Assembly (NCBI RefSeq): GCF_003149375.1
Contig: NZ_QFWH01000004.1
Coordinates: 248,001-312,000, forward strand
DNA: 64,000 nucleotides
Direction: 5' to 3'
From: Vampirovibrio chlorellavorus
Lineage (GTDB): Bacteria > Cyanobacteriota > Vampirovibrionia > Vampirovibrionales > Vampirovibrionaceae
The position numbers and the translations under genes are program-made. The notes under the pieces were generated by a model. The model saw only the letters and a program-made list of their open reading frames with translations, had not been told where the DNA came from and did not search any database. Below are positions 10,586 through 57,154 of this stretch, in pieces. Position 1 is the stretch's first letter. The number at the start of each line of letters is the position of its first letter.

Positions 10586-10605
10586 GTCCTCTATATTTTT
10601 TCGCT

Positions 10606-10632
10606 CCACTCCACTCCACTCCACTCCACTCC
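10606..10632. repeat. Five-base tandem repeat (CCACT)5
   Basis: Five perfect copies of CCACT followed by CC, starting 21 bases after the folK stop. A T-rich stretch precedes it. This is a simple repeat in an untranslated gap; a change in unit number would not shift a reading frame. Confidence 0.85.
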
Positions 10633-10644
10633 CTGTCTTACTAT

Positions 10645-10752
10645 TTGTCATTCCCGCGCAGGCGGGAATCCAGAGTTCGATTGTAGGGTAAGCATTTTTT
10701 GGCAAAGACGCACTTCTATAAACTGGATTCCCGCCTGCGCGGGAATGACAAG
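10645..10752. repeat. Inverted pair of ATTCCC-N8-GGGAAT palindromes
   Basis: The left unit (10647-10673) is TGTCATTCCC, then GCGCAGGC, then GGGAATCCAG. The right unit (10723-10750) is its exact reverse complement. Each unit is itself a palindrome with the format ATTCCC-N8-GGGAAT. About 50 bases lie between them. Similar pairs occur near 20367 and 56767, so this is a dispersed family. It sits between the convergent 3' ends of folK and mutS2 and could fold as a large hairpin in RNA from either side. Confidence 0.9.
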
Positions 10753-20366: not shown

Positions 20367-20490
20367 TTTGTCATTCCCACGAAAGTGGGAATCCACTGAA
20401 CGGGGCAACGCCCATCCAGCAATCAAAAGAGAGGCGTCAATCAATCCAACTGACAGGCAGCATGGATTCCCACTTTCGTGGGAATGACCA
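20367..20490. repeat. Inverted pair of ATTCCC-N8-GGGAAT palindromes with conserved interior
   Basis: The left unit 20367-20395 reads TTTGTCATTCCC, ACGAAAGT, GGGAATCCA; the right unit 20463-20488 is its reverse complement. The interior ATCCAGCAATCAAAAGAGAG recurs, inverted, inside the pair near 56765-56888. The interior as well as the ends is therefore shared, as expected for a small non-autonomous mobile element. It fills most of the 377-base gap between the transglutaminase and GH9 genes, where I see no gene. Confidence 0.88.
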
Positions 20491-56602: not shown

Positions 56603-56610
56603 TTGTTTTT

Positions 56611-56705
56611 CAGGGGGGCGTTGCCCCCTGTGACCCCACAGGAGGGGGGACAGAGCTTTTCGCTCGTCCTGTCCCCCCTCCTGCCCCCCTCCTGCCCTCC
56701 CCTGC
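56611..56705. repeat. GC-rich double-hairpin repeat, copy C (inverted, divergent)
   Basis: The order is reversed relative to copies A and B: first the GGGGGCGTTGCCCCC hairpin, then CAGGAGGGGGGACAG and its inverse CTGTCCCCCCTCCTG. It starts eight bases after the dnaE stop. Confidence 0.75.
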
Positions 56706-56764
56706 AAAGAATATATTTTAATGTCGAAATGAAAAAAACAGTAAAACCTCCCCTGAGGCCTGAT

Positions 56765-56888
56765 TTGTCATTCCCGAGGAAGCGGGAATCCACGCTGTCT
56801 TTCACGTTTGTACTTATTTATTTCTCTTTTTTGATTGCTGGATCTGCGTGGCTCGGCTCAGCGGATTCCCACTTTCGTGAGAATGACA
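56765..56888. repeat. Inverted pair of ATTCCC-N8-GGGAAT palindromes
   Basis: Left unit TTTGTCATTCCC, GAGGAAGC, GGGAATCCA; right unit GGATTCCC, ACTTTCGT, GAGAATGACA (one mismatch). The interior contains the inverse of the ATCCAGCAATCAAAA string seen in the pair at 20367-20490. Confidence 0.85.
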
Positions 56889-56977: not shown

Positions 56978-57005
56978 CTGGATTCCCACTTTCGTGGGAA
57001 TGACA
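56978..57005. repeat. Single ATTCCC-N8-GGGAAT unit
   Basis: CTGGATTCCCACTTTCGTGG then GAATGACA. It is the same unit as the right ends of the pairs, with a perfect palindrome. It may form a further pair with the unit at 56863-56888, but in the same orientation. Confidence 0.85.
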
Positions 57006-57030
57006 GCGCCATAACAAATTGAAAAGACAT

Positions 57031-57116
57031 GCGTGGGGAGGTCTGGAGGGGGGACAGGGCTTACCCTGGACTCTGTTCCCCCTCCAGTGGGGTGCAAGGG
57101 GCAAAGCCCCTTGAGA
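57031..57116. repeat. GC-rich double-hairpin repeat, copy B
   Basis: CTGGAGGGGGGACAG, its inverse near 57073-57087, then AAGGGGCAAAGCCCCTT. It closely matches copy A at 23613. With copy C it brackets the palindrome cluster, so the whole 56611-57116 gap is repeat DNA and no gene is seen. Confidence 0.87.
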
Positions 57117-57154
57117 AAGAAAAATCCCTATGCGTAGCAATGACAAAAAACTTT

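Follow-up and report, generated by a model that had tools for sequence, protein, structure and literature searches.

CGTC-1 type REP pairs in Vampirovibrio chlorellavorus and a GIY-YIG nuclease as their candidate mobilising enzyme

REPs of the CGTC-1 family, whose form in Neisseria is dRS3, are found in many hosts (Di Nocera, De Gregorio and Rocco 2013, PMC3733652). According to the accessible portion of that paper, they occur mainly as head-to-head dimers, among which homodimers predominate, and rarely tail to tail, TGTC and CCTC are variants of the unpaired CGTC tag, CGTC repeats show no association with a transposase gene, and no RAYT is flanked by CGTC units. What forms CGTC REPs, dRS3 among them, is left open in the same portion.

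By every feature tested, the palindromes of Vampirovibrio described here are CGTC-1 type REPs, and they add a further member to a family under which dRS3-like repeats are already in print. They share with the published units, as far as the accessible text of PMC3733652 describes them, the tag, the AT-led 8-bp stem, the 4-nt loop and the CCA tail, together with head-to-head dimers, common homodimers and the lack of a RAYT. That text does not name Vampirovibrio as a CGTC-1 host, and our literature search found nothing on palindromes in Vampirovibrio. A difference from CGTC-1 REPs as published there, without gene association, is that the Vampirovibrio units also bracket a nuclease gene.

The units have the ATTCCC-N8-GGGAAT format of Neisseria dRS3. 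NIME arrays of Neisseria also have dRS3-format units, whereas the Vampirovibrio units form isolated pairs and small clusters. The REPIN/RAYT system (REPtron) of GTAG REPs is similar in two respects, an inverted hairpin pair as non-autonomous unit and a version in which these hairpins enclose a gene. However, the tag is GTCAT instead of GTAG, the gene encodes a GIY-YIG nuclease instead of a Y1/HUH transposase, and Y1 protein is missing from the host-family genomes searched.

REP units in the window

The window is the whole stretch of 64,000 nucleotides that was analysed (G000:C4:248001-312000), and the whole genome (G000), that of a non-photosynthetic cyanobacterium akin to Vampirovibrio, has 2.79 Mb. 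A pattern scan of the window for ATTCCC-N8-GGGAAT gave six exact units (10650, 10727, 20373, 20466, 56770 and 56982) and one unit with one mismatch (56865), compared with a mean of 0.33 and a maximum of 3 units in 100 shuffles of the window. All seven dRS3-format units claimed in the first-pass annotation were recovered, each no more than 1 base from the position given there. Orientation is head to head in all three window pairs (TGTCATTCCC..GGGAATCCA ... TGGATTCCC..GGGAATGACA). The features are as follows.

10646..10672, + strand: REP unit, forming the left arm of pair 1, made up of TGTC tag, 8-bp stem, loop and CCA tail
10673..10723, no strand: interior of pair 1, 51 bp, without gene
10724..10750, - strand: REP unit, right arm of pair 1, core identical to that of the left arm
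20369..20395, + strand: REP unit, left arm of pair 2
20396..20462, no strand: interior of pair 2, 67 bp, common (inverted) to pair 3 and the genomic pair L020
20463..20489, - strand: REP unit, right arm of pair 2, GGTC tag
56766..56792, + strand: REP unit, left arm of pair 3, with core GAGGAAGC
56793..56861, no strand: interior of pair 3, 69 bp, common to pair 2 and L020
56862..56888, - strand: REP unit, right arm of pair 3, decayed by 2 changes and with core ACGAAAGT
56979..57005, - strand: lone REP unit beside pair 3, in tandem with the right arm of pair 3

Pair 1 lies between convergent genes for HPPK and MutS2, pair 2 between co-directional genes for a TPR/transglutaminase protein and a GH9 cellulase, and pair 3 between convergent genes for DNA polymerase III alpha and an E1-E2 ATPase. 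The MutS2-like protein beside pair 1 has 97% identity to that of Vampirovibrio chlorellavorus NCIMB 11383 (L016), and 99% identity over part of its length to that of a Vampirovibrio MAG (L018). Rfam gave no match in the window. Two other kinds of repeat were seen near the pairs. A short tandem repeat of CCACT (window ~10605-10632) lies directly left of pair 1 and is missing from the relative L018. A GC-rich repeat of ~100 bp has inverted copies on either side of the pair-3 cluster (window ~56606-56722 and 57030-57126), with further copies near L028, L032, L038 and L056.

Pairs in the genome and in related strains

Few copies genome-wide would have spoken against the first-pass annotation; in fact copies are many, with 41 exact places of ATTCCC-N8-GGGAAT in the genome against 1 of the reversed control pattern. 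Together with the window scan, these matches bear out its claim that the dRS3 format exists outside Neisseria. A looser scan of the stretches around the exact places gave 52 units, of which 50 were kept after the weak matches L021:3715 and L052:3763 had been excluded before pairing. Neighbouring units form at least 16 head-to-head pairs and 4 tandem arrangements, with 0 tail to tail, and 15 of the 16 head-to-head pairs are 104-129 bp long. Each unit is built from an unpaired 4-nt TGTC tag, an 8-bp stem starting with AT, a 4-nt loop and an unpaired 3-nt CCA tail; the tag is TGTC in nearly all units, and CGTC or GGTC in a few. The N8 core is not free sequence but consists of the loop flanked by the innermost 2 bp of the stem. 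In 36 of 44 units, the two outermost bases at either end of the core pair with each other, so that the stem reaches 8 bp and leaves a loop of 4 nt.

Facing units can pair along their whole length, and hence pairs 1 and 2 fold as single strands into long hairpins, with a 28-bp stem and z = -10.6 for pair 1 and z = -7.9 for pair 2; the decayed and mismatched pair 3 folds weakly (z = -2.8). Across the genome, 10 of the 16 pairs carry one and the same core at both ends (shuffle mean 2.8; 10 was reached in 1 of 20,000 shuffles). In the window, the earlier statement that N8 cores match within pairs holds for pairs 1 and 2 and fails for pair 3 (GAGGAAGC and ACGAAAGT). The accompanying idea that the two ends coevolve fits only these 10 of 16 pairs, and copying of whole pairs explains them at least as simply.

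Read in inverted orientation, the interiors of 20369-20489 and 56766-56888 match at 72% over ~68 bp. The interior of the third genomic pair, L020, is 82-83% like those of window pairs 2 and 3. The common interior of pairs 2 and 3 noticed in the first pass is therefore real, is wider than was stated and extends to L020. With the units masked, no similarity was found between the outer flanks of pairs 2, 3 and L020. Since whole interiors are common and outer flanks are unlike, the copied thing looks like the pair itself. Head-to-head pairing and common interiors bear out the view of the palindromes as whole small paired elements.

Joined flanks of 15 sites (site 15 only partly) were searched in four genomes of the same genus, sites 3 and 6 being scored from distances alone. 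Both flanks were located in G006 for 11 sites, and the element is missing at 8 of these; one of the remaining three holds a REP pair and two hold other sequence of similar size. In G009, both flanks were located for 8 sites, 6 filled and 2 empty. Polymorphism between strains, the lack of which would have told against the first-pass annotation, is thus present. Alignment of five G006 sites upheld the absence of the element, but the segment lacking there is longer than the pair, and a clean target duplication is not evident at these empty sites. The small pairs behave as gene-less non-autonomous mobile elements. Different sequences also occur at or near these sites. The pair-1 site of V. chlorellavorus NCIMB 11383 (L016/L199), the strain that G006 probably represents, is one of the two with other sequence and holds a different insert with inverted ends ACTCCGGTAAAGTCCTCTCCTCCCCA, and a short repeat AACTCGCCGCACTCAAATAGTTGCAAAC in the right flank of G000:C3:244554-244659 (L035) has ~12 copies in the relatives G006 and G009.

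Empty sites bear on the question of whether the units, instead of being mobile DNA, are kept by host selection as transcription terminators, RNA hairpins or supercoiling elements. Strong hairpins are consistent with such functions, as are the positions of the window clusters, two of which are flanked by convergent genes and the third by co-directional ones. However, a relative whose genes stand in the same order lacks the element at most comparable sites, and distant sites have whole interiors in common, so that we leave this explanation only a small chance.

The first-pass annotation had also described dRS3 units as targets for phage and IS integration in Neisseria. Phage Nf1 uses dRS3 in this way there, and a unit of pair 1 does fit the Nf1 subtype pattern ATTCCCRCCTRCGCGGRAAK given in the accessible part of PMC3898611. 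For the units described here, this role was not borne out. IS110/Piv-type transposase (PF02371) was found in 0 of 5 family genomes, and no phage or IS is inserted at the inspected units or sites. Moreover, common interiors and pairing would stay unexplained by integration targets, and we consider this reading very improbable.

Many intergenic inverted REP pairs with a spacer are also the overall build of REPINs, which are moved by RAYTs, the Y1/HUH tyrosine transposases of GTAG REPs. However, PF01797 was found in 0 of 7 Vampirovibrio-family genomes while control genomes were positive, the tag is TGTC instead of GTAG, and the accessible part of Di Nocera et al. (2013, PMC3733652) reports no RAYT flanked by CGTC units. 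Identity with REPIN/RAYT was rejected because of the wrong tag and the lack of Y1 transposase in the seven family genomes, and there is hardly any probability left for RAYT-driven movement.

A GIY-YIG nuclease gene bracketed by REP units

One head-to-head pair, L043, differs from the others in its 316-bp interior, which encodes a GIY-YIG nuclease of ~97 conserved residues (G000:C6:113685-113975) inside an exact 27-bp inverted pair. The pair lies between sucC and sucD, names which are our reading of the translations. The protein matches PF01541 with an E value of 8e-16, and its alignment with relatives has invariant Y, R, H, E and N columns, which we take to be catalytic positions. No family was found for it in NCBIfam and PHROGs, and among solved structures only distant matches to UPF0213 and UvrC were found. 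No interior similarity was found between the small gene-less pairs and L043, and the small pairs are therefore not plain deletion products of the gene-bearing element. In G006, only a short spacer without the nuclease gene lies between sucC and sucD. The G003 copy was considered as an independent insertion, and this was rejected; the copies of G000 and G003 both follow sucC and are therefore not independent, with one event or a hot spot as the source. In G007:C19 (L204), the gap between sucC and sucD holds ~450 bp of unrelated sequence without a nuclease match.

Relatives of this nuclease occur in 94 of 386 Cyanobacteriota genomes. Flanking units were scored at 76 loci taken from ~117 places with E <= 1e-20, namely the best-ranked ones and six more; two of the 76 re-measure a neighbouring gene copy. 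The strict rule asked for GTCAT and then a hairpin with its outer 5 bp paired, at most 150 bp from the gene. Under this rule, inward tagged hairpins stand on both sides at 27 of 76 loci and on at least one side at 62, and counting either orientation raises these numbers to 41 and 72. Units facing outward on both sides were seen at 12 of 76 loci, because some hairpin types occur in both orientations. The gap between unit and gene end is mostly <40 bp on both sides. Many rule-failing loci carry degenerate units on inspection by eye, which were left out of the counts. Inward units on both sides were seen at 0 of 76 loci in a shifted-frame control, and tagged units at 0 of 28 control genes (0/14 UvrC/Cho genes and 0/14 genes of a weaker GIY-YIG subfamily). 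Of nine other short GIY-YIG genes in the host family, the one in G003 passes the rule.

Hairpin types differ in how closely they accompany the gene. At the level of genomes, the association is weak for the ATTCCC type, with the gene in 5/11 repeat-bearing versus 89/375 other genomes, and strong for the ATTGCGAG type (39/52 versus 55/334 genomes; Fisher p ~6e-17, kinship uncorrected). Nuclease clades were named by palindrome type, including ATTCCC, ATTGCGAG and ATCCTGAAC. On a tree of 93 nucleases, palindrome type changes 29 times compared with 57.2 times when shuffled, and 0 of 200 shuffles were as low; this tree has 92 columns only, near-copies inflate the clustering and palindrome types were lumped by hand. 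Single genomes (G363, G097, G101 and G131) hold several nuclease clades, each with a different flanking palindrome type. ATTCCC-type nucleases from Vampirovibrio, from a cyanobacterium, from Neisseria and from Aeromonas are placed close together on the tree in spite of their different hosts, with a putative fork joining them.

The nuclease–REP association is strong and crosses phyla; in three of them, GTCAT-tagged hairpins stand next to relatives of the gene. Plasmid-collection records with the nuclease gene numbered 33, and 18 loci were fetched. The strict rule holds on both sides at six of these 18, including Azospirillum, where the element is located between sufB and sufC, Aeromonas and Rhizobiaceae. 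Variants with GTCAC or GTCGC stand on either side of the gene at three Sphingobium loci and one Novosphingobium locus, and the Shinella HZN7 locus misses the strict rule by one change. Tagged palindromes stand near both ends at the Planktothrix and Spirosoma loci, where the rule does not hold, two Sinorhizobium loci have CTCAT-type palindromes, and the Photobacterium locus has an array on one side only. No palindromes were found at the nuclease gene of the Rhizobium K1/93 locus. In the literature available to us, we found no earlier mention of a link between GIY-YIG proteins and REPs.

Proposed role of the nuclease

Ssn nucleases of Neisseria and other bacteria are GIY-YIG single-strand nucleases, and the G000 protein has the same domain. 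Its N. gonorrhoeae homologue, which lies within a dRS3 array, has 54% identity to it and is a putative Ssn; we infer that the two names denote one protein. Ssn cuts single-stranded DNA at specific sites, and Ssn-like cleavage by the G000 protein is predicted from its sequence. A Neisseria GIY-YIG nuclease of the Ssn family was reportedly shown in 2025 to cleave single-stranded DNA at a repeat of the genome. Should this repeat be dRS3, recognition would already have been shown in Neisseria.

The same hairpins bracketing the nuclease gene in G000 and in unrelated bacteria suggest that the nuclease is the mover. Our main reading is that CGTC-1 REP pairs are non-autonomous elements with an Ssn-like GIY-YIG nuclease as their likely enzyme, to which we give a probability of roughly 0.55. 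According to this model, each unit would form a hairpin and leave its (T/C)GTC tag unpaired when a single strand is exposed, either as lagging-strand template or as incoming DNA. The nuclease would recognise its own hairpin type and nick near the tag at both ends, and the strand released in this way, whether or not it carries the gene, may then be re-inserted or recombined elsewhere. Recognition, cleavage and movement are each predictions here. More broadly, CGTC/GTCAT REPs including dRS3 may form a second REP world, whose mobiliser would be a family of GIY-YIG single-strand nucleases, each with one hairpin type, inside head-to-head pairs that jump between phyla, with the gene-less window pairs as non-autonomous partners; the chances for and against this wider proposal seem to us evenly balanced.

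The main rival to a mobilising role, which is our best guess, is passenger or homing-type behaviour. The GIY-YIG gene would settle at REPs as abundant and safe cut sites, and REPs would spread by recombination, transformation or an unknown enzyme. Repeat-rich genomes without the nuclease gene are consistent with this rival. For example, the 99% complete genome G006 contains 17 full units but lacks a strong gene of this type, its best match scoring 32.6 bits versus 159.7 in G000, and G105, G330, G022, G238, G057 and G081 likewise have repeats without a strong nuclease gene. The unlike interiors of gene-bearing and gene-less pairs also agree with a passenger, as does the position of the Neisseria copy in a large repeat array instead of one clean pair. 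However, the only three exact units of G136 all bracket its GIY-YIG gene, which has one in-frame stop; this genome has no other exact units, and the gene therefore did not pick among existing repeats there. In addition, units are close to both gene ends, and hairpin type follows nuclease clade, also between genes of one genome. A passenger is thus a good deal less probable than a mobiliser, and we regard it as unlikely.

With a nuclease gene bracketed by hairpins and a hairpin type that tracks nuclease clade, the origin of CGTC REPs becomes a testable question. If the mobilising role is true, the GIY-YIG nuclease would be a mobile-element enzyme convergent with RAYTs. Natural enzyme–hairpin pairs also offer a large set for reading recognition rules.

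The link was also followed from palindromes to genes by a motif-only search of viral contigs. ATTCCC pairs 321-350 bp apart were found in three contigs, and all three carry the nuclease gene, with 62.9-65.5% identity to Neisseria or Azospirillum copies. Pairs at gaps of 200-230 (4 contigs), 290-320 (2) and 400-430 (0) had no nuclease gene. As a separate observation, the GIY-YIG gene and palindromes on Planktothrix agardhii plasmid p1 (L182) lie between an MmeI-type restriction enzyme and DISARM drmA.
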